The notes beneath the pieces were generated by a model, which ran no database searches, was not told the DNA's origin, and saw only the letters and a program-made list of their open reading frames with translations. Position numbers and translations under genes: made by a program. Of a stretch of 64,000 nucleotides of DNA, positions 3,587-64,000 are shown in pieces. How positions within the stretch are numbered: the first letter of the stretch is position 1; each line of letters opens with the position of its first letter. Origin of the DNA: Xylogone sp. PMI_703 (Eukaryota > Ascomycota > Leotiomycetes); assembly GCA_021399445.1 (NCBI GenBank), contig JAJTUQ010000008.1, forward strand, positions 1,232,433-1,296,432, read 5' to 3'.

Positions 3587-6500
3587 CTAACAGTTATCTG
3601 TACATAAAAGAGAACCCGTATTAGATCCTGCTATCTTAGAGCTACATTTCCAGGATCGGTATTGAAATAAATCTAAAATTTCTTTCTTTCCACATGCAGC
3701 CGCAATATCGAGGCTCGACCTCCCTTTTTCATCCTCCGCCAGCGGGTCCAAGCCCTTCGCAACCATAAACTCAAACAATTTCCTATCAATCTCCTCACTG
3801 CCCTCAGATTTTCTGGAAATAATGTGAAGTGCCGTCTCTCCCGCATTGTTCTTTACATTCACATCCGCTCTATTAAATAGCAGTTCGTAGCTCTTTGCAA
3901 AATCAGCCGTGTTGCACTTGTATAAGTACGAGAACAATGGAGGAGAGCCGTCATTATCTAGTGCATTTACATCACCACCAAGGTGGAGAAATCTTTCCCA
4001 GAGGGACACGCATTGTGCAAAATATTGTGGATCTTGGTTTTCCCGGAGCCGGTATCTTCGCTGGTGTTTATATTGTAACAGACACTGGGCAGCGATCTGG
4101 TGCAAAGCAGTGGCACCGTGCGCATCAGGCTGAAGCAAGTCAGCGCCCATCGTCAAGAGGACTTCAACCAGTACAGGGCGCAGAAAACGGAAGGCATAAT
4201 TCAGTGGGCTAAACCCTTTCCTATCGGCCTGAAGAAGAAGTTGTTTGCACGCATCATGCCTACAATTATCAAATCAGCCAATGCCCAGAAAGATGTAATG
4301 AAAGATTAACCTGACTACTCCGAAAGCTCTGGAATCAAGAAGTCTCGTGAAGATCATAAAGGAAACGAAATAATCAGAAAATAAATACCTTAAGAACTGA
4401 AGGATCGCGTCTTCTTCCATCTGTGGATTTTCAAGAAGATGGTGCAGAGCATTCTTGCCTTCATTGTCAACTGCCAATGGATCTACATCACAATCTAATA
4501 TCAGTATAATAGGAGCTGTCCTCTTAACCCAATCTTGTCCGTGTCTATACCGTGGTAAAGGACGTGTGGAATTGCAGGCAGCTAGGAAAACAGTACGTCC
4601 AAATTGATCCCTTGAATTAAAGTCAATCCACTTTCTACACTCGAGAAAAGCATTAGTAATCTCGTACTCGGCATGCTCAAATACGTAGTGTATCAGAGTC
4701 CCCCTCTCGCTCACTGGACTGTAAGGATTAGCTCCTCGCTCAATAAGCAGCTTGGCAAGTGGTGCCGAATCTTCGATCTTCTGATTCATGATGAAGGGGA
4801 AAGAGGCGCAGAAGAGAGCCCATCTCTCTTCGTCTTTGATTTCATAGTGGATGTGAAAAGCTTTATCTCTATCCTTGATGTTGGGATCTACCCCAGCGTC
4901 AAGGATAATGCGAAGGGTTTGAAGATCTTGAGACTGAATGGCGGAGAACAGTGGAGAAATCTTACTCCCAGAGATGTCTGCACCTCGCTTAAGCAGTATC
5001 TCCATTGCTTTATGGTTGATCTGAGCCAGGTTCAGGGGTGACATTCCCTCATTATCCAGTACGTTCGGATCGGCTCCTAAGTCTAGCAAAAGACTTACAC
5101 AATCAGCGCTCCAAAAGCCTGGCCTACGGATATGCTTAAGGTCGAGTGACCCTTCATTACCACACGCAATATGGAGAGGTGTTTCTCCTCTTTCATTTCT
5201 CGAGTTAATGTCAACACCCCGTTCTACGAGGTACCTAATTGCATCAAGATACCACCATCTAGATGCTTTCGCCAGCTTGTGAAGTGCAGTTGGACCAGCA
5301 ATAGAATCAAACTCCAAGTTTCCATATTGTTTGGTGAGTACGAGAGCGCGTCCATTGACGTCAACTCCACATTTCTCGATCAATGTCTGGATCATCTGCA
5401 TATTTGGTAATTCTCTCTTGCACGCAGCGTGAAGAATTGGGGTAAAGGGCTCTAAGTAGCCTTTCGTATAACCGGTATTTAATAGACGCGATTTAACCGA
5501 GGCTGGGTCATCATAGAATTTCGCTAGACTGCCCAAACGCTCCATCATCTGTGTGAGCCCGTTCGAAGCCACAACATGCAAAAATGAGACTCCGTTGGAG
5601 CTGCGAAAAGCCTCGCCATCCTCATTAGTAAGATTTGCCTTATTTTCAATGAGCCAGTCAATATCATCAAACTTAAGTGAAGACACGTATCTAGTAGGAT
5701 GCTGGCAGATATCTTCACGAACATCCTCCGGCAGGTCTCGGCGTCCAATTCTGGTCCTTTGATTGAGTGCCACTTGGGCATAGAATCTACGATCCTCTGG
5801 TTTCAGCTCTATTCGATTTTGCACTTCGTCTACACAGAACTGCAGAGCTTGTATCATTTCAAAGCAACTATAGAATAAGGCTAGTTCAAGCGGAGATTGC
5901 CCTCGGGTGTCTATTACAAGTGGATCAGCTCCCGCAGCCAGCAATAATCTTACAATCTCTCCAACTCCGGCAGTATCATGGTCGGAAAGATCTGGCTTAT
6001 GAGCATACTGGGAAGTATACCAAAGCCCAGATTTGTAAGTGTCCTGAGGTAGGAATCTATACCGACTATTGATCTCCAGGCTGCCTATTGTGTCGTCGTA
6101 TTGGAGCACTGACCAGATCTTCTCTTCAACTCCAAACTCAGCACAAGAATGGAGAGGTGTTCGCCCTTTAACATCTTTAGCTGTAACATCAGCACCGTTT
6201 TTTAAAAGATAGTAGACAGATTCTGGTCGCCCCGAGGCACAAGCATAGTGCAATGCGGTCCTCCCTGAGAAGTCTTTGTTATCGACTGTATCTCCTTTCA
6301 TCTAGTTATAGTTAGCAAACAATCCGAAATGAGGTGAAATTGATGGTTATGTAACAAGAGAACCAAAGTATAGAAAATGTTCAGAATATCTCGGAAATGC
6401 TTGTTTGGCTATGCCTGTCCCGAGTTGCTAGATTTAGGTGAGGGAGACAAAGACCGAAGTATAGGAATAAAACTACAAAGGGACAGTAAGCTCACTTTAT

Positions 6501-29507: not shown

Positions 29508-31101
29508 CTAGCTCCAAAGGTAAGATATTTTATATAGGGCTTTCTCAAATCGTTTTTGTAACGCCTCCTGCCTGCCTTCCGGCACCATGATGATGGCCTC
29601 GCTGGGTTGCTGATCACGCCCTGCACGCCCACTCTCTTGCACATAATTCCGTATCTGAAATACCGGTCCTACGTGAATCACCACTCGCACATCTGGTCGA
29701 TCAATTCCTAATCCAAATGCGTTTGTGGCTACCACCACACGTCCGTCCGCGCTTTCCCATGCTCGCCGGATCTCTTCCTTGACGTGTATGTCACCAACAT
29801 CTCGATAATACATGTGACAATCTAATCCTGTCCCTAATCTCGTTGTGGTCGGGATGCTACTGCTGTATACGATGATTTTCGCTGGTGCTGGGTATTCTTC
29901 TATTTTCGTCCGGACTAACTGGCATGCTGCCTCGACCTGGCCTTCCTCATCTACCGGGTATTCCATCACCGAATATGCAATGTTGGGACGTGTGGTCGAT
30001 GCTCGAAATATTTGTGCCTCCTCTTTCCGGATCTTCATGATTTCCATCCATTCATCCTCTTCATGCGGTGGCAATGTTGCCGTCAAATATATCATCTACA
30101 CTCCCCGGCTCATCAAATTCCCTAGCCATCACATCCGGGGACGGAAATCGACTGTGTTATCCAACACTGAATGGGCCTCGTCAAAAACGATCCGATCTAA
30201 TTAACATATGCCTTGTAATCGATCCAAAAATGTCCTAAACGTCTTGCTGACTGCTAACTCCGGCGTCATTATGACAATTTGACCGACTTCATGGCTTTGC
30301 TTCGCATTCCATTTGATGTACGAAATTCTTATGTTCTGACACTTCTTCATTATATGATTCTGTAATGATACTAACGGTGTAACAACAATCGTCGTCTTAT
30401 GCTTCATGCATTTGGCTGGTAACTCATACATCAACGACTTGCCCATGCTGGTGGCCATGACTATGACGATAAGGCTGTAATGCTTCATGATGGCCTGCAA
30501 AACGGATTCTTGTAAACCGCGAAACCGTGCCTCACTTCCATGTATCTTTTCCAATTCAACCTGGATATCCATCCCGCGTAATCGTTTTCATCGTGCAATT
30601 TGTGTATGTTGCCTTTCTTCCTCGTCTATCTGCCGCTTGTGTTTGGCTCGCCCCTCCATCGTTACCCTTTGCTCTGCTGATGGAAAATGCAACCAACAAT
30701 GTTATACATGACTGACGCGCCGGAACCTTTCACGTCTATTAACCATAGAATCACTGGCTTCCTGTAATTCACGTGCGTATATCATGGCTCTTACGTGGCT
30801 AGTGTGGCCATACTGCAAATCCCATATCTCATCCTTCTCCGTGTCTTCATTTTGAATTTCGTCATCCTCAAACGTATCCTTCTTTTCCTTGAACGAATCG
30901 TTTTTGCAATATCGATGTGACGTTGCAATGATGAAATGACGATTGACGTTGATATTATACCCTTTTACTCTTATGTACCGAAATGCTACCTCTTTCAATA
31001 TCTTGCGTCCTCCCTCGGACGTCCACCCATTGTGTTGTGGTGATACTGACGACCTGGCTCTTCTTGGGCGCCTCATATTCCCCTGCTCCTGCTCCTGGTT
31101 A

Positions 31102-31141
<40 letters not shown>

Positions 31142-31679
31142 TCTCGTCATCACCCGGACGTATGTTTGATTTTCCTTACCCGGCGAGGGAAATCCCCTTT
31201 TGCTCACTGGCCTTATCATGACCCTTTCGCTTCCTCTTGGGCCCTGTCAATTGTTGATGCTCTCTCTTCTGGCCGTCTCCCCATATAAATGCATTTGACT
31301 TGACCTTTCCTGTCCTTTCAAATTCAATCTTCTCTTGAAATGACTCTACTAACCACGTAAAATATATCCACAATGATCCTGCTTCTCGTGGCATGAATCG
31401 ATGAATCCTCTTGATATTGCCGCTACTTCGATAACCCTTGTGATATTCGACGGTATATGACACCATGCCCTCGTCGATTCCAATATTACGCACTCCTCCA
31501 TTGGCTGTATTTCTCTTACGCAACGTCAATAATTCCCGTGCTCGTGCCGGTTGTGATAATACCATTTGGGAGCTCACGAGCAAAGCAGATATTATTAGAA
31601 AAACCCTGCTGAAGGGTATAAAAGAGGCATGTATCCAGGACTCAGGGTGCTGTAGTCGTTGGATGGATTTCGATGACAT
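29508..31679 (-). pseudogene. Tyrosine-recombinase/RecQ-helicase element, decayed copy
   Basis: One reading frame runs across the whole span and is interrupted only by in-frame stops, at about 31170, 30700, 30603, 30197, 30117 and 30099. The first part matches the recombinase domain of the 57.6-63.15 kb gene: QPARARELL against QPARGPEIG, RNIGIDEGMVS against RNIYVINGQVC, then HRFMPREAGSLWIYF. Next come an acidic/His-Asp linker, the box around NRHFIIATSHRY, and GHTSHVRAMIYAR with the likely catalytic His and Tyr. The helicase follows: MATSMGKS (motif I), VFDEAHS (DEAH box), LTATLPP (motif III), ATNAFGLGIDRPDVRVVIH and QESGRAGRDQ (motif VI). The 5' C2H2 part and the 3' cysteine-rich tail are missing or unreadable. 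The stops are of kinds C-to-T or G-to-A change would make, which fits RIP. Confidence 0.85.
31102..31140 (-). repeat. Hexanucleotide microsatellite coding (His-Asp)n
   Basis: About six and a half copies of GGTCGT on the plus strand. In the frame of the decayed helicase copy it encodes alternating His and Asp in the linker between the two halves of the recombinase domain. The intact paralogue has an acidic low-complexity insert at the matching place. Confidence 0.85.
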
Positions 31680-31742
31680 CCCCGTTAATGACTTGAAAAA
31701 AAAAACGAGTTAATAATAACCCGCGCTTTCGCCTCTGCTAGC

Positions 31743-32626: not shown

Positions 32627-34156
32627 CTACAGCTCATTACGATTTTTTAAGCTCCTTCTGCTATTCATAGTAGCTTCTAGCGTTGTTCGGTGTAGTTTGT
32701 TATCTCGAGACTTTATCGGACCAGTAGTCATAGCAAGATCGTTTGCTTGATGATTTGTCAAATATTTAGAATTTGTATCATACCCAGAAGTGATCTCGGT
32801 GGTAACACTTCGATGAGATCCATCGGATCTATCATTCGTTTCTTTTATGAAACGTCGAATGCTAGCTTCTGAAATAGCATTATTCGGAGGAAAGAGATAC
32901 TTTTCTCTTCGTACTAAGTCATGAATTGCCAATGCAGGAACTTGATCCTTTTTGAGACCACAGCTTGCAGCTAGGCCTGGGAAGGTATTAATATCAGCAG
33001 TAGCAAAATTCAAAGTGCCTGTGTAATCCTTCGCAACCGGTTCCAGTTGCATTATGAGAGATTGGTGGTCCATAGAAGTATCCATGAATATGTATGCAAT
33101 CGGAAGGCTGGTCTATTTGGGTCATTAATAATGTGATACAGACTCCTGCCCAACACTTACAGCAACATAATACGCATAATTGCCCGCGTTCAAGTCTCCA
33201 ATCAATGGAAGTGACGCGATCCTAACAAATCTCAGAATATTCTCTGCCTTAAATTCACCAGTTAAAACCCTCTTAACTGTCCCGAAATCTTTGTATACGA
33301 TTAATGACGGTGTGATAACATTTTCTTTCCGAGATTCAATTAAGTCATTGATAGTCCCAAATATGGAGTGCCCGCGTAACTCCTCTGCTGCTTTGATAAT
33401 TTCCGCCAAGGCTGACTGGTCATTTTCAGCGAGGAATCCGATAACAGTCGTAGACTCAGCAGCTTTAAAGGCATCCATAGCAGCATTGTCCAGTTTTGAA
33501 ATCAGTGGATATGACTGTTTAACCATAAATGAGACAATCCTTGGAAATTACGTTAGCGTTCTTTGTTCTATTTTGATACTCGGCCTCAGATATTCACGAA
33601 TAGTTGAGTGGTAGCAGTCTTACTCTTCGGAAGTCCTTGCTCCCGTGTAGAGATCGGGACTTTCATCTAAACTGCGGAAAATCTTAAGAGTCGGATATAA
33701 ATCTACGTCATATCGGCGACAGAGCTGTCCCTCTTTGGCACAGTCAACTGCAGCCAGCATAATACCACGTTCTTTTAGGACTCTGGTGGCATTCTCGTAT
33801 TCTGGGTTAAATTCTTGGCAAACCCTGCTGTACGGTTTGATAACTGTTAGACAGGGATATGTTCAAGGGAATTCTACGGGTACTTCACCACCATGACTGC
33901 TCCGATCAATAAACAACTTAGCAGGATATCGATACAAGGGACAGGTAAAAAATTCCATACCGCGAAGACTGGTGAATAGTTAATTGGTGATCAAATAGAG
34001 CACAGTATATACCATGAGACTCACAGTTTACTAAACCTACATCATTCTTTTCCACATAGTTTTCGAACTCTTCAGATGTCAGGAGAGCACATCCGAAGCA
34101 TTTGCTAACACAAACGAGTGTAGATACACCAACAAAATTGAGATTAATTGTCTCAT
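32627..34156 (-). pseudogene. Protein disulfide isomerase-like gene, frameshifted
   Basis: The ATG at 34156 opens a good signal peptide (MRQLISILLVYLHSFVLANA) followed by SDVLS. A one-base deletion near 34082 breaks the frame before LTSEEFENYVEKNDVGLVN. Downstream exons then join cleanly: 34025 donor GTGAGT to 33843-33624, 33539-33161 and 33112-32627, with GT..AG introns of 181, 84 and 48 bp and a CTAAC branch. The thioredoxin a domain has FIKPYSRVCQEFNPEYE where active PDI has WCGHC, so the first catalytic cysteine is Ser. The b and b' domains follow (MVKQSYPLISKLD, FATADINTFPGLAA). The second thioredoxin domain is absent, giving about 400 residues instead of about 500. The protein ends in RNEL, resembling a damaged HDEL/RDEL retrieval signal. 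It appears to be a degenerate, inactive PDI paralogue. Confidence 0.75.
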
Positions 34157-34350
34157 CACTGTTACCATGACAATCAATGCACAGATAAACTTGAACTGAT
34201 AACAACTAATGATTATTTGGAGTTGGGTAAGCAACTTAGAGTTTTACAATATCGAACTTTCTAGCTCGCATTGATAAATAAGCTCCTTTCAAGGTCGGTT
34301 CGATTGAACTTTTTTTCAATATCAATTAGTACTCTTACAGAGGCAAACTC

Positions 34351-55169: not shown

Positions 55170-55560
55170 ACTAATCAATACCCCGGTATTTTAGCACGTC
55201 GAAGAAACTAGGACATCCTGCCAGGTTCTACCTGCCAGGTTTTTATATCACAGTATTTTGACGCGAAAATGATATATATAAGGCAAGTTGATATCGTGAT
55301 TTCAGATTTCACATCAGATTTCCATTTAACCCAGTGATTATGTCGTTATAGTCAAATTAAAGTTAACCTGAAAGTTTAGATGGGGTCGATTAGTCAGCTA
55401 ACCTAGTTACCCTGGATTGTACCAGGAGACTAATGTAAAAACGTTAATAATATATAAGTAAGTTAAACTATATATAGAACAAGTTAACATTAGTAAAGTT
55501 AATGTAAAGTTTAAATCATATAAAAGTTATATGATTAAGTAAAGTCAAATTATATAAAAT
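55127..55560 (+). repeat. Direct repeat, upstream copy of element 5' region
   Basis: Colinear with 56984-57460. Shared landmarks include GCGCCAAGCTTGACGC, TCAATACCCCGGTATTTTAG, CAGATTT..TTTAACCCAGTGATTATGT, GATTAGTCAGC, AAGAACGTTGGTAATATA-like sequence and TATATGATTA. This copy has lost more C and G. It probably contains the promoter and 5' UTR of the element. Confidence 0.8.
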
Positions 55561-55584: not shown

Positions 55585-55604
55585 TTAAATCATATAGGAT
55601 TTAA
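55585..55604 (+). repeat. Palindrome TTAAATC-N6-GATTTAA
   Basis: A perfect copy of the 20-bp motif that recurs in the introns and 3' flank of the intact gene. A related palindrome (AATCATATAA..TTATATGATT) lies about 70 bp upstream. Confidence 0.85.
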
Positions 55605-57460: not shown

Positions 57461-57623
57461 TAAAGAAAAGCTCGGATTAAACGTCGTGTTATGTGCACAC
57501 ACAACAAGTTGTATGTAAACGGGGATTGGTCAGATTAAGGTTTTGAGGCCCGTGCAGCGAGAAGACGTTTTGTGAACACACAACAAGATTAGGGTTATAC
57601 AATAATCCACGAAATTTAATGAT

Positions 57624-60600
57624 TTGACATCGAAAATGAATTCAGCATATGAAGTTAGACCCATCCCCGAAGTTTGGAGCGATATAGTCCATTTGAACGT
57701 GAAGTATAAGGTGTTGTTGTGTTTGAGCGACCGGTGCAACAAAGCGGTCAGCGCCCGTGGGTTAGTAGAGCACATCCGCAGGTATCACGACGTCAAGCCA
57801 GCAATCCGGCGTCAAATCGAGCGATATACGAAAGAATTCAAGCATGATTACAATTACGCGACGATTCCCATTCCCGAGAATGGTTTGGCACCACAGCCCA
57901 TCATCCCCATCGTAGATGGATACCAATGTAGAGAGTGTTCGTATATCACCCAAAGCGACCAATATATACGACGGCATGCAAATAAGGACCACGAGAAAAA
58001 GCGAACAACCATCGACGAGATATGTACCAGAGTACGGTTGCAAACATGGTTTCGGGATGGCAAAGAGCGATATTGGGTGGTGGACGAGAGCAAGCAGGCC
58101 GACGAGGAGTATCAACGTCGCCAGATCACCGTCCCCGACGTGGGAGAAGTCGACAACAACCCGGTTGACGGAGAAGGGCCAGATGAGGAAGTCCCAGCGT
58201 GGGTTTCGGCCAGTGATCCAATTGCCCAAGAGATCCGGGCATGGGAGATAGCCAAGCAGGAGCATCGTGCAACATTGTTAGCCACGGTGCCGGCCGACGA
58301 GTGGGATCCATGGTTGCGGTTTACCGGATGGAATACAGTATTGCAGCAGTCCAAGCATGATTTGGTCAAGACACATGCGTTCAGTGAAGTAGCCAAGCCA
58401 GAGGAGCCACAGTTGTGTCGATTGATGGCGGCATGGGGCCGGATTTTGGAGCGGTGTTTGGATACGTTGGCCAGCGTGGACCACAAAGATGCATTAAAGT
58501 GGTGGAAGTCGCCGAAAAATGAGGTGGCCCACCAGCACCCATTTGAATTACACCAGAATTCAAAGTCAGTGGACCGGTGCAGCGAGGATTGGCAGCGGTT
58601 TATATGTTACGCCATGCGCACGGCGCCAGAGGAGGAGGGAGGTGAGACGGGTAAGTAATGAGTTTTATTCGTACCATTGGAGAGTATGATTATGCAAAGG
58701 AGCCCATTCGGAAAGGCATATCAAAAGTTGGACGTGCAGAAGGGGTTTTCAAGAAGGGATTAACCCAGCGGCAAAGGCGGTATTTAAATCATTTAGGAGT
58801 TAAGAAAATGGTCAAGTGATCAATTCAGAGCCGAGAGGTTAAATCATATAGGATTTAAGGGCCAGCGCCAGTAACCGAAAGGGAGGCCAACCCAGCCAAT
58901 GTGTAAAGTACGTTAAATCATGTAGGATTTAAGGGCCGGCACCAAGCCGGATTTTTTTTTGCATGACGTATACGCCGGAGAAAAAGGATAGATGTTAACG
59001 GTGTACAGAGACAGGAGTCACGTTCACCAGCGGCCAGTGGAAGTGTATCAACCGCATACGTGAGTGGATGGAGGAGAACGAGGATCCCGACGAGCCCACG
59101 GCCGAAGACGACCCATTGGCCGATATGTTGATGTGTTTGTGCATGTTGGTGTTAAAGCAGGACACCAGCCGGATGCCGTTGTACGAGTCGCCGTTGATGC
59201 ATTATATGGCGGTCCGAGGAATCGACGTCAGCGGCCCACGGTTACGGTCATCCATGCAGTCGACGCCCACGATGGGACGCATATTGTGGATCGGGCGATT
59301 GATCATGTTAGAGGTGGCGGTCCCATTGGTGGGGTGGCCAGCATTAGGGTTGCAGGCCAGGCACGAGTTGCGGTCCGTCCCGCAGCGGATCCAGGAGATT
59401 CGACGACACCATTTGTGCGAGGGGTCGTATTCACCAATATCCAGCATTTTGTCGCAGTTAGCCAAGGGCAAAAAGTCCAACGATGAACATCAGGAACCGT
59501 CGAATATCCATTGGTCCCACGACGAAGAAACGATTTATTATCAGGGACCAGGAATCCGGATGGATAGTTTACGCAGGATGTGTCGGAATTTAATTAGCGA
59601 ATTAAGAATATTAATTCGAGAATTGATGTTTGACCAGCCACCACCCACGATTGATTTGACGACAATCGAGGATTCGATGGCGTGGAATACGCATTTTCGA
59701 CGAGTTGAATATAATTTTATTGAGAACGTCAAAAATCAGAAGCAGTGCAAAGTTGGGTGGGAATATTTGTACCGGCGGGCACGGCAGAAGGGCGGACCAT
59801 GGTCATTAATCAAGCGGGCAGCAGATGGGACGGAGACGTGGAACGAGTCACAGAAGAGAGGGTATTTAAACCGGGAAAGGGAGTTTTTGCGGAAGTTGAT
59901 GGTGACGATGCATATCACAGGAGGACAGCCGGCGCGGGGGCCGGAGATCGGGTCGATCAAGGTCAGCAACAGCGTATATTCGGCACGCAACATATACGTG
60001 ATCAACGGGCAGGTATGTTTTTTGACGATGTACGACAAGTCACGCAAACGGCGAGGCAACACGGATTACATCGTGCGATTTTTACCAACGGCGGTCAGCC
60101 AGATGGTGGTACAGTATTTGGTGTACGTGCGGCCATTCGCGCGGGCATTAGACCGTCGCGAGTCGGAGTATTTGTTCGCGGACGAGGGCAAGCCGTGGGC
60201 AGGGGAGGAGTTGAGCAATCAGTTGGCCAAAGACAGCCAGAGGTATTTAGGAGTGCGGTTGACGACGCGGGGATATCGACAGGTGGCGATCGGGATAGCG
60301 GTGCGCAAGTTGGGACGGGCCAGCCGGACGTGGGAGAAGGAGGAGGGAATGAAGGGGGAGGAGGAGGACGAGGACGAGGGTGAAGAGGAGGAAGCAGAGG
60401 GAGATGGAGAAGAGACAGGAGGATTAGCATTGGATACGTTTCGACATGCGTTGATTCGGTGAGTGATTTTTATTTTTTTATATTTTTTATATTTTTATAT
60501 TTTTATTTAATATTTTTAATTTTTAATTTGGTTATTTTATCATACAAAAAGATAAAAGGAGAAAGTTGGTAATAGATGAGGTTAGCAAGTAGGGAGAGGG

Positions 60601-63150
60601 TGAGAGTTGGCAAGGGCCACAGTGAAAGCAGAGTTTAAATCATACAGGAGTTAAAGGAGTAGAACAGTCAAGTGATTGAACAGCGAGAGGTTAAATCATA
60701 CAGGAGTTAAGGGATAAGCACAGCAGCCAATCAGAAAGCAAGGCATTAAATCATAAAGGATTTAAGGGCCACGTTCGTACAGTGGTTACGTATTTGAACA
60801 CATCAATGTCACATATTCAGGAGGTTTAGCAGATTGAGTAAAGATTTGGGTTGACAAGTTATACAGGCAAGCCGGGCATCAACGACGCGTCGCACAACAG
60901 CATTACGCCATCGACGGGAATTTTTTGCATCGATTGGGGCCAGAGTTGATCAGCGTGTTCGAGCAGGCATCAGTCAAGTGGCATGAGTTTTTGGAGTTGG
61001 AGACGATGAGCACATGGTATTATGCCACCGGCAGCAAAGGTGAAGTAAAACGTCGGACCAAGCACGAGCGAGGCATCAGCGAGGAGTTGATGAGGTATAG
61101 CATCCCACGACGTATCAAGAGAGAGCATCAAGTTAAGGCCGACGCGGACCAGGCCAGAGGCGTCCATCACAAGAAAGCCGCGCAAGCAACGAGCAAGGCA
61201 GTCCAAGGGATCCGGGCGATATACGGACCACAAGGACGATTCAAGTCGGTGGAGCAGCAAGAAGCGATGGAGTTTATGCATCACGGCCATACAACATCGA
61301 TCATCGTGTTACCGACCAGCAGCGGCAAGTCAGTGTTGTTTTTTTCGATGGCAGCAACGGTGGTACAGCAAACGGTAGTAGTGGTGGTTCCATTTGCAGC
61401 ATTAGTGGATGATATTATGGAGCGTGGACGAGAGGCCGGATTGAATTGCGAAGAATGGCGAGATGAGCACAGTGGTAAGGAGTTACAACAGTTGATAGTG
61501 GTCAGCGCAGACCGAGCCGTCAACGGGCCGTTTTTGCAGTATGCGCAAGGGATGCAGATCCGGGGACAGTTGGCGCATATGTTTTTCGACGAGTGCCACG
61601 TTGCAATCACAGACATATCATACCGAGCACGATTGCGAACATTGTGGCAGTTACGGTATATTGGGTGTCGATTTACGGGGTTGACAGCGACGTTGATAGT
61701 AGATTTGGAGTGGATATTACGAGAGCAATTGTCGATTGAGGGAGCGGTATTATTTCGACGACATACAGCACGGCGGACGATTCGATATCGGGTGATTGAC
61801 AGCAAGAATGAGCCGCCATTCGAGGTTGGGATTCGAGTTGTGCAGCAATTAGGAGAGTTTTCGGGCAACCAGGGTGGGATTATATACGTACGTAGTTATG
61901 CGGTGGGCGAGAAAGTTCAGGAAATATTGGGATGTCCGTTTTACAAGGCCACAGCGGAGGATAAAGGGGAGATGTTACAACAGTGGATACGGGGAGAGTG
62001 GAGGGAAAGGAAGGAGAGAAGTGAGACAGAGGAGACCGAGGAGGGAGAGGAGAAGCAGGAGAGAGGGATCGAGGAAAGAAGGACAAGGGGACAGGGGAAG
62101 GGTTGGATCGTAGCCACAGGAGCGTTGGGGACGGGGATCAACATCGAAGGCATCCGATACGTCATTCACATTGACCGGCCATACGGATTGACGAGTTTCG
62201 TACAGCAGAGCGGACGTGGAGGACGAAGTGGTGAGGTGAGCGAGTCGATAATCGTAGTTAATGTCAAGCACACGCGGCCATTCAAGGGGGAGGAGGAAAT
62301 TACGGCGTACAGCGTGGAGGAGGTAGACGAGCAGGCAATGACAGAGTATATCCAAAGTCGACCATGTCGACGGATAGTGTTAGGACGGTATATGGATGGC
62401 GTGGTGCGAGTGGATTGCGGACGGGTTGACGGGGTGTTGTGTGACGTATGCCACAAGAGAGCAGCACAAGAGCAGTACATCCGGGAAGAGGAGGGAAGTA
62501 AGGCAGAAGAAGACGGAGGAGGAGAGGGAAGAGAGGTGAGGTTTGAAGGAGAAACAAGTGAGTCAGGGATTGAACGGGAAGAAGAAGAAGGGCCACGGGT
62601 GGAAATTCGACAACGGTTGGGGATGGAGGAGATGACGGATGGGGAGATGTTTTGGGTGATGGGGGAGTTGCAGAAGAGATGTATATATTGCGAATTGACG
62701 CAGGAAGGCGAAGCAAAGGCGGAGATTCACGAGTACACGGATTGTGAATTGGCGTCACGGGCAGGATGTGGAATGGTAGCATACGAGCAATGGCGAGAGG
62801 AGGTGCGGTTAGACGTAGGGCAACAGTGTTGGGAGTGTGGATTGACGCAAGAGTTGTGTCGGCGCGTTGAACGAGGGTTGGCGGAGTGTGAATATTCGAT
62901 GGTGATGTTGGTGGGAATATTCATCATGATGCAGCAGGAGGCGGGATGGAGGAGGATTGGATGGGACATTGGATTTCGAGGGCAAAGTCGGAAGGAGATA
63001 GTTCAATGGATGGGACAGTGGGAGGCGAATTGGTGGGTGGGAGGGCGATGGGAGAACAATTGGATGCGAGTGTGGCGATGGATATGTCGATTATACGTGT
63101 ACGAGCAGGCGGGGAGCGTTACGGGTGATGAAAGGAGATTAAGAGTGTGA
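57624..63150 (+). CDS. C2H2 + tyrosine recombinase-like + RecQ helicase protein
   Basis: Three exons: 57624-58650, 59009-60458 and about 60868-63150. Intron 1 (donor GTAAGT, acceptor TACAG, phase 1) restores frame. Intron 2 starts with GTGAGT and ends at about 60867; my acceptor and the exon 3 frame differ by one base, so that junction needs checking. Exon 1 has two C2H2 fingers (CLSDRC..H..H and CRECSY..H..H) as in OrsD/DUF3505 proteins. Exon 2 resembles a tyrosine recombinase: GGQPARGPEIGSI (box I Arg) and TTRGYRQVAIGI (box II Arg). QAGH and HYAID (likely His and nucleophile Tyr) lie near the exon 3 start. Exon 3, counted from 60925, has LPTSSGKS (129-136), FDECH (222-225), TATL, GALGTGINIEGIRYVIH, QQSGRGGR and a Cys-rich tail. 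It resembles telomere-linked RecQ helicases. Nuclear DNA rearrangement or mobility is inferred. Confidence 0.78.
58839..58932 (+). repeat. Two TTAAATC-N6-GATTTAA palindromes in intron 1
   Basis: Copies at 58839-58858 (perfect arms, spacer ATATAG) and 58913-58932 (spacer ATGTAG), both followed by GGGCC. Just after the second is a CCGGC-ACCAA-GCCGG hairpin followed by a T-run, within the same intron. Confidence 0.9.
60635..60765 (+). repeat. Three palindromic repeats in intron 2, ~56-bp period
   Basis: Copies at 60635-60654, 60691-60710 and 60746-60765, 55-56 bp apart. The first two have right arm GAGTTAA, the third a perfect GATTTAA. The DNA between them is also related (CAATCAGAAAGCAAGG and GATTGAACAGCGAGAGG types), so the repeating unit is about 56 bp, not just the palindrome. 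Confidence 0.9.
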
Positions 63151-63290
63151 GATCGGGACAGTCAGGAGAGAGGGAATGATTAGAGATTAGGATTGGGTAG
63201 TCAAATCGGAAGGAAAAGGAAACGGGAGAAGCAAAGGAAGAAGCAAAAGGAAGGGTAAAAGGAAAGATGTGAATGATAACCAAGGAGATT
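63151..63290. other. 3' flank of the helicase gene
   Basis: Purine-rich sequence (GGAAAGG, GAAGAAGC types) continuing the strand bias of the coding sequence. No terminator motif identified. Confidence 0.4.
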
Positions 63291-63402
63291 GCGAAGCAAT
63301 CAAGCCAATAGCATCGGCGCGAAGCGCACAAGGGGAGAAAGGTGAAAAAGATATGGATTTAACAATAGTATCAAGGTAAGGGAAAATAAATTAAATAATA
63401 TA

Positions 63403-63404
<2 letters not shown>

Positions 63405-63441
<37 letters not shown>

Positions 63442-63450
63442 GAAGAAAGA
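63405..63450. repeat. (GAAA)n microsatellite
   Basis: About nine to ten tandem GAAA units ending in GGAAG. It lies in the first unit of the 431-bp duplication and is not evident at the same place in the second unit. Confidence 0.9.
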
Positions 63451-63509
63451 AGATGTTAGATTAGCAGTTTACAGGAAAGGGAGATAATAAACAATTAGAA
63501 AGCAAGAAG

Positions 63510-63585
63510 TTAAATCATATAGGAGGTAAGAAAGTAAGTATAGTAATCAATTAAAGAGCAGAAAGTTAAATCATAAAGGATTTAA
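63510..63585 (+). repeat. Two more palindromic repeats in the 3' flank
   Basis: Copies at 63510-63529 (right arm GAGGTAA) and 63566-63585 (perfect arms, spacer ATAAAG), 56 bp apart. The linking sequence CAATTAAAGAGCAGAAAG matches that in intron 2. Fainter copies follow near 63890 and 63945. Confidence 0.85.
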
Positions 63586-64000
63586 GGACAGTAATTATAA
63601 ACAGTTAAGAGAAGAATAATAATAATACAAAATTAGATGTATAAAAGGAAATTTGAGAAAGAAAAGTTGGGAGATAAGCAAAAGGATTAATTAATAAATC
63701 AGGATTAGATATTCAAGGATTGCGAAGCAATTAACCCATAGCAATCGGCGCGAGCGCACAGAAGCAAAAGAGGGGTAAAGATATAGATTTGGCAATAGTA
63801 CCAAGTAAAGCGTAAAAGGTATAAGTAAAGGGGAACAAGTTAGATTAGTAATTTAAGTAAATTAATAATTGAATATAAGTCAACAATAAGTTGAATCAGA
63901 TAAGAATTAAGAAAACAAATAATTAAGTAATCAAAAAGCAAGAAATAAATATAGAGAATTTAAATAAGTATAATATTATTAAAAGTAAAAAATATTAAGA

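Follow-up and report, generated by a model that had tools for sequence, protein, structure and literature searches.

What does a gene encoding zinc fingers, a recombinase-like region and a helicase in one protein do at the very end of a contig, and why do near-identical copies of it sit at the ends of others? We addressed this question in a 64,000-nucleotide stretch of Xylogone sp. PMI_703 (the window; C24:1232433-1296432), the last base of which is the last base of contig C24 in an assembly of 50.1 Mb in 25 contigs. A preliminary description of this DNA had placed such a gene at 57624..63150. The gene is there, but it belongs to a larger repeated unit that runs from 57471 to the contig end. 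By a judgement somewhat better than even, we read it as the sole large gene of a one-ended mobile element that resides at the ends of chromosomes and is joined to broken ones. What we observe is a single gene, a single fixed end, location at contig ends, stacked copies, no more than two common bases at the joints and a conserved pentad of residues.

As had been claimed, three open frames are joined by introns into a single protein, which has 1582 residues and starts at base 57636 of the + strand. Exon 1 (57636..58650), intron 1 (58651..59008), exon 2 (59009..60458), intron 2 (60459..60866) and exon 3 (60867..63150) are separated by the splice signals GTAAGT..TACAG and GTGAGT..ATACAG, and the protein runs from OrsD zinc fingers through a recombinase-like middle region to a RecQ-like helicase. 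Pfam matched OrsD (PF12013) on exon 1, at residues 18-119 (E 2.4e-13; 50.9 bits, cut-off 26.6), and ResIII (E 3.9e-9), DEAD (E 4.8e-8) and Helicase_C (E 5.8e-10) on exon 3; exon 2 gave no Pfam match. The helicase (about 61252-62457) is nearest to RecQ, both in NCBIfam (TIGR01389, E 7.1e-28) and in the PDB (E 5.5e-15), at scores under the curated RecQ cut-offs (97.4 versus 640.2 bits and 84.1 versus 219.8 bits). Together with the selection on a diverged copy described below, these matches uphold the earlier claim that one gene carries both OrsD fingers and a RecQ-like helicase. The spliceosomal introns and the OrsD domain suggest a fungal host.

The repeated unit (57471..64000, + strand) is about 7 kb long and opens exactly at 57471, reading CTCGGATTA[AG]ACGTCGTG, with the gene beginning 165 bp inside this left end. 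The left-terminal sequence CTCGGATTAAACGTCGTG (57471..57488, + strand) has 15 exact matches in the genome. A search with CTCGGATTARACGTCGTG at up to two mismatches returned 19 matches, 15 of them exact, versus 2 for the reversed control. All 15 exact left ends have an identical first base, and they abut 14 different 40-base flanks; the flank in common is that of C14new and C5new and lies within an older copy. Eight of the 15 (C5new, C12end, C9, C20, C24, C14new, C8 and C17) lie close to contig ends, at distances of 308 to 7081 bp, and count as terminal, all with the gene side inward. The other seven (C14a, C5old, C5tr, C25a, C3i, C12i and C14i) are not terminal, and at C12i only about 25 bp of the element is recognisable. 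Four mismatched matches (C21:920426, C12:8166424, C1:3094239 and C20:1600705) were left uncounted. The first of these was rejected as a left end, no element sequence being seen by eye behind the match. At C12:8166424-8166530, 44 kb from the contig end, two left-end-like sequences lie 84 bp apart and look by eye like an old stack or relic.

The interior of the unit is equally uniform. A 1001-bp core (59100-60100) occurs in six copies at 100% identity (C24, C20, C17, C14, C9 and C8), each reading toward the nearby contig end, and in less similar copies on C5 and C25. Compared as whole units, five others are 99.5-99.97% like that of the window, the differences being mainly gaps. Every one of seven helicase-exon matches (76-100%) is accompanied inwardly by a left end, and no right-hand flank was seen among them. 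The suggestion of the preliminary description that the gene belongs to a mobile element or encodes a subtelomere enzyme is supported by these near-identical terminal copies with one precise inner end, and by nested, truncated copies. Contig C5 carries three copies in a row and C14 carries two, a newer copy starting where the older one ends. Along the C5 row, C5old is 91% identical over the first 1.2 kb, C5tr is 93% identical and ends at 58225, and the third is identical over the 309 bases compared; each stacked copy on C5 starts with CTCGG at the end of its predecessor.

To see what such joints look like, we compared target sites with unit-free relatives, which are found on C3 near 93768 (for C24) and on C9 near 18559 (for C20). 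The relatives are 80% (C3) and 87% (C9) identical up to the joint and continue beyond it as different sequence. The overlap between the joint and the first bases of the unit is 0 at C24, 2 (CT) at C20 and 1 where a unit is joined within an older one. A palindrome, TTAAATC..GGTTTAA, has its edge at the joint position in the C3 relative, a single case. Comparison of six upstream flanks (2.2-3 kb each) found no homology at the joints; those of C24 and C20 have 243 bp in common at 79% identity, about 2 kb from the joint.

The main rival to a one-ended mobile element, which we consider unlikely though deserving of weight, is that the unit is a passenger: an ordinary subtelomeric repeat that contains a telomere-linked helicase gene and owes its spread to the host, through homologous recombination, break-induced replication or end joining, with no part played by the recombinase-like domain. 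Overlaps of 0-2 bases at the three comparable joints are as expected of end joining, and the passages seen of PMC7367193 document break-induced replication at the telomeres of fungi. Host recombination has also left its mark here. C5tr is a mosaic, its last ~210 bp matching the window exactly and the remainder being more diverged, and it has its joint in common with C14. We had considered the truncations of C14a and C5tr at 58225 as two events, but because of this mosaic we take the joint to be one event spread by homologous recombination. What a passenger explains poorly is the left end: random strand invasion or end joining predicts scattered starts, whereas one and the same base adjoins all 14 different flanks. 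The common first base thus argues against host recombination as the source of the units, without naming an enzyme.

A second alternative, which we regard as improbable, is that the terminal position is an effect of assembly, with contigs stopping in long near-identical repeats and the units being internal insertions of a two-ended element. Long identical repeats do break assemblies, telomere-like repeats are missing from the ends of seven of the eight terminal copies, and for these seven an assembly break inside the repeat is possible. The copy on C8 does run into CGGGTT repeats at the contig end, and those on C14 and C17 both enter the same degenerate GTGAGGGTTAG-like repeats; the copies on C24, C20, C9, C12 and C5 stop short of the latter. 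Three exact TTAGGG repeats are absent throughout the assembly, and three of TTCGGG occur only at the C8 end. Because the C8 tail shows many A-to-C changes relative to C14 and C17, its TTCGGG is probably a sequencing error of TTAGGG. An assembly effect would further predict contigs opening in the right-hand portion of a unit and continuing into native flank, and none of the seven close helicase-exon matches is of this kind.

A two-ended recombinase transposon of the Starship or Crypton type, its right end so far unseen, appears very improbable. A gene 165 bp inside the end and reading inward is the arrangement of Starship captains, as far as described in the passages seen of PMC12134995. We found no DUF3435 in the exons and saw neither a right end nor a target repeat, and in nested copies the distal part of the older copy is lost. 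That copies were retrotransposed onto chromosome ends, as in MoTeR, FoTeR or HeT-A, by an enzyme acting in trans is the most remote of the alternatives: retroelements added to ends also show an exact inner boundary and are truncated distally (FoTeR, from partial sources), but Pfam finds no reverse transcriptase in the three exons, the introns are retained and the 15 joints have no A/T tail or telomere repeats. HeT-A likewise has a precise inner end and distal truncation.

If the gene is to move its own unit, the candidate activity lies in the middle region. We aligned this region from six paralogues, all from this genome: the window protein after splicing, the other copy in the window, a C9 frame that lacks introns, and partial sequences from C24, C3 and C25. 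The paralogues are 18-32% identical to the C9 member, and of the 190 columns in which all six are present 11 are invariant (Q645, R648, N659, R665, K682, R695, W735, R762, Q823, H826 and Y835). Five of these stand in order in all six paralogues: R648 (59935-59937), K682 (60037-60039) and R762 (60277-60279) in exon 2, and H826 (60877-60879) and Y835 (60904-60906), nine residues apart, in exon 3. R-K-R-H-Y are the catalytic positions of tyrosine recombinases. In a crude null model that draws 11 random invariant residues and leaves alignment bias unmodelled, an ordered R-K-R-H with a Y nine residues on arose in 1 of 200,000 draws. The first Arg sits in RxxE or RxxD in six of six paralogues and, by eye, likewise in six known recombinases. 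PARGPEI, GYRQVA and QAGH..HYAID, the motifs first read in this protein, are all present. The R..K..HxxR..Y geometry proposed along with them is found as regards the order of R, K, R, H and Y but not as regards a His opening the HxxR box, where the six paralogues have R, Q or N. The first HxxR position also varies among known tyrosine recombinases. On this pattern of residues, the middle domain is probably a tyrosine recombinase.

Searches by similarity returned little for this region. A phmmer search of the PDB with exon 2 found no link to recombinases, a profile of the six paralogues gave one chance match only in the PDB (a heat-shock protein, E 0.29), and Pfam matched no family to the middle domain of the six. 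Using hhalign against XerD, lambda Int, FimB, FimE, Cre and HP1 Int we obtained 15 aligned columns at the GH..Y box, at a probability of 0.2%. Viral contigs contained 39 pattern matches and no relative. The structure prediction that the preliminary description had called for was run on the middle region as two AlphaFold models, one from the in-window paralogue alone and one from a 186-residue piece of exon 2 plus one paralogue piece. With inputs of only one and two sequences the mean predicted local distance difference test score (pLDDT) was about 40, and the fold was not confirmed; the first model has a helix, three strands and a helix in recombinase-like order, too uncertain to count. The recombinase call made from motif order is therefore sustained by the five invariant residues in six paralogues, but a match of fold or profile was not obtained.

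The predicted fusion of recombinase-like region and helicase recurs in the genome. A decayed paralogue on the - strand of the window (29511..31709) is a single frame from the first Arg through the end of the helicase, interrupted by six stops on our reading, and it has the same recombinase-like residues ahead of the helicase, in agreement with what had been claimed for this copy. Two C9 frames (3854-4678 and 4679-6274) carry what reads by eye as YRQL and an H-9-Y tail, and behind it a helicase. The region C9:11338-15367 holds an intronless frame of 1343 residues with OrsD and recombinase-like residues, with no helicase match listed inside it. Elsewhere in the window, frames on the - strand at 32627-34205 look by eye like a gene for a thioredoxin or protein disulfide isomerase.

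We examined constraint on the protein using C5old, the diverged copy at the end of contig C5. Its splice positions match those of the window gene, its introns are short and it has one additional intron of 65 bp. Identity to the window is 93% in exon 1, 80% in exon 2 and 77% in the compared part of exon 3; the alignable parts of the introns are 60-64% identical, and C5old lacks 268 of the 358 bases of intron 1 and 331 of the 408 of intron 2. Six-frame matches to C5old show three stops and one stop, which we place in introns because the codon-wise comparison is free of stops. Over 955 ungapped codons the ratio of nonsynonymous to synonymous substitution rates (dN/dS) is 0.107; C5old stops near window position 61290, and the ratio thus leaves out most of the helicase. 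By residue range dN/dS is 0.12 (1-130), 0.068 (131-338), 0.084 (339-590), 0.055 (591-770, the lowest), 0.23 (771-820, an acidic stretch) and 0.10 (821-962). Judged from these two sequences, the protein is under purifying selection.

The fixed end itself carries features that a protein might recognise. Two unstranded dyads of 20 bp lie at unit positions 17 and 96 in the window (17 and 95 in the relics). Dyad 1 (57487..57506) has 8 of 10 pairs in the window and all 10 in C5tr, where it is perfect (TGTTATGTGCGCACATAACA), and dyad 2 (57566..57585) has 7 of 10 in the window and 8 of 10 in both C5tr and C5old. In C5old both sites are of the TGTATTG..CAGTAC type, i.e. they have changed alike. The number of shuffles, out of 2000, that matched both dyad scores was 46 for the window, 0 for C5tr, 3 for C5old, 46 for C25a, 227 for C14i and 273 for C3i. 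A second element, the 20-bp motif TTAAATCATNNAGGATTTAA, has 27 exact copies in the genome versus 0 for its reversed control. Twenty-three are in six long terminal units, two are on C3 (240 and 254 bp upstream of OrsD matches) and one is on C14 (105 bp ahead of a helicase match), which places 26 of the 27 inside units or near OrsD or helicase matches. The window unit has eight copies, variants included, 55-74 bp apart: three in intron 1 (58784, 58839 and 58913), three in intron 2 (60635, 60691 and 60746) and two distal to the gene on the + strand (63510 and 63566; 63510..63585). The remaining exact copy, outside the unit at 55585..55604 (+ strand), adjoins a second copy of flanking sequence (55257-55544). 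The inverted arms of the motif, 7 bp each around a spacer of 6 bp, would suit a recombination core site; a regulatory role is just as likely, given its positions within introns, beyond the gene on the distal side and ahead of paralogues.

How might a unit with one fixed end be added? The trigger would be the loss of a chromosome end. The OrsD fingers or the recombinase-like domain would recognise the fixed end, that is, the terminal sequence and its two dyads, on another telomere. If the pentad is catalytic, the tyrosine enzyme would cut at the fixed end, at 57471 in the window, and join that strand to the broken end, so that the recombinase-like domain makes the joint. The helicase would then open the duplex telomere-ward, and the remaining unit and telomere would follow, by copying or by transfer. 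A second transposon end would be unnecessary, since the copying would continue off the end of the chromosome. Homologous recombination could afterwards spread and homogenise the copies. More tentatively, and with less than even confidence, we suggest that the unit represents a new class of mobile element, a DNA transposon borne on telomeres and having one fixed end only. Its recombinase/RecQ protein would attach this end to chromosomes that have broken and bring the unit along as far as the telomere; the OrsD-bearing telomere-linked helicases of fungi would then be the transposases of such elements.

Several results weigh against a one-ended element with its own recombinase. The recombinase fold is confirmed by neither profiles nor models, and the comparisons were confined to this genome. 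The dyads clearly beat shuffles in just two of six copies. No target consensus was seen when one was sought in the 14 flanks. The joint common to C14new and C5new, together with the mosaic C5tr, shows that ordinary homologous recombination also moves ends, and a relic on C25 (L025) matches interior parts only and has no left end. Finally, just one of the eight terminal copies reaches telomere-like repeats, and these, on C8, read TTCGGG and not TTAGGG.

Among known systems the unit stands closest to the telomere-linked helicases. That fungi carry RecQ helicase genes in their subtelomeres has long been known, with no agreement on what these genes do. One such gene has 13 copies in Mycosphaerella graminicola (PMC4522978), full and truncated tlh regions are described for Fusarium in the passages seen of PMC12857005, and partial sources report OrsD at Ustilago UTASb and in the Metarhizium recQ gene. 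As in Fusarium tlh, Ustilago UTASa/UTASb and Metarhizium recQ, judged from these passages, we find a RecQ-like gene near chromosome ends in full and truncated units: the RecQ-like domain is present and 8 of 15 left ends lie within 7.1 kb of a contig end, one of the eight with telomere-like repeats. The same passages differ in making no mention of recombinase residues, an inner end precise to the single base or stacked joints. In the open-licence literature we found no description of a recombinase domain or fixed end in telomere-linked helicases; dedicated work on Fusarium tlh (Curr Genet 2024) may already describe a fixed inner end. If the middle domain is a recombinase, subtelomeric RecQ genes would become end-capping transposases.

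Other mobile elements share single traits with the unit. Starships, with DUF3435 captains, likewise have a recombinase gene first inside one end and reading inward, according to partial sources. Unlike them, the unit has no DUF3435 match, no cargo and no right end that was seen, and has a helicase fused on; the 15 DUF3435 matches in the genome, several with stops, include none on C24. Starships bear direct repeats at two ends; here one end is seen and all terminal copies run off the contig. Cryptons, like the unit as we read it, have a tyrosine recombinase as their sole mobility enzyme. To our knowledge they have neither a helicase nor a link to telomeres, and the middle region matched no Crypton-type family in Pfam, no Crypton sequences having been compared directly. 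Helitrons, whose RepHel protein fuses a strand-cutting tyrosine enzyme to a helicase, offer a functional analogy only; the nuclease and helicase classes differ, and Pfam matched no HUH Rep domain in the three exons. In their addition at chromosome ends, fixed orientation and truncated stacks, MoTeR and FoTeR, as far as described in the passages seen, resemble the unit. HeT-A is also added at chromosome ends, in fixed orientation and in truncated stacks. All three differ in using a reverse transcriptase and in placing the 5' end toward the terminus, where the unit places the 3' end of its gene. Overall, if the proposed reading is true, the unit would be a DNA-based counterpart of the telomeric retroelements.

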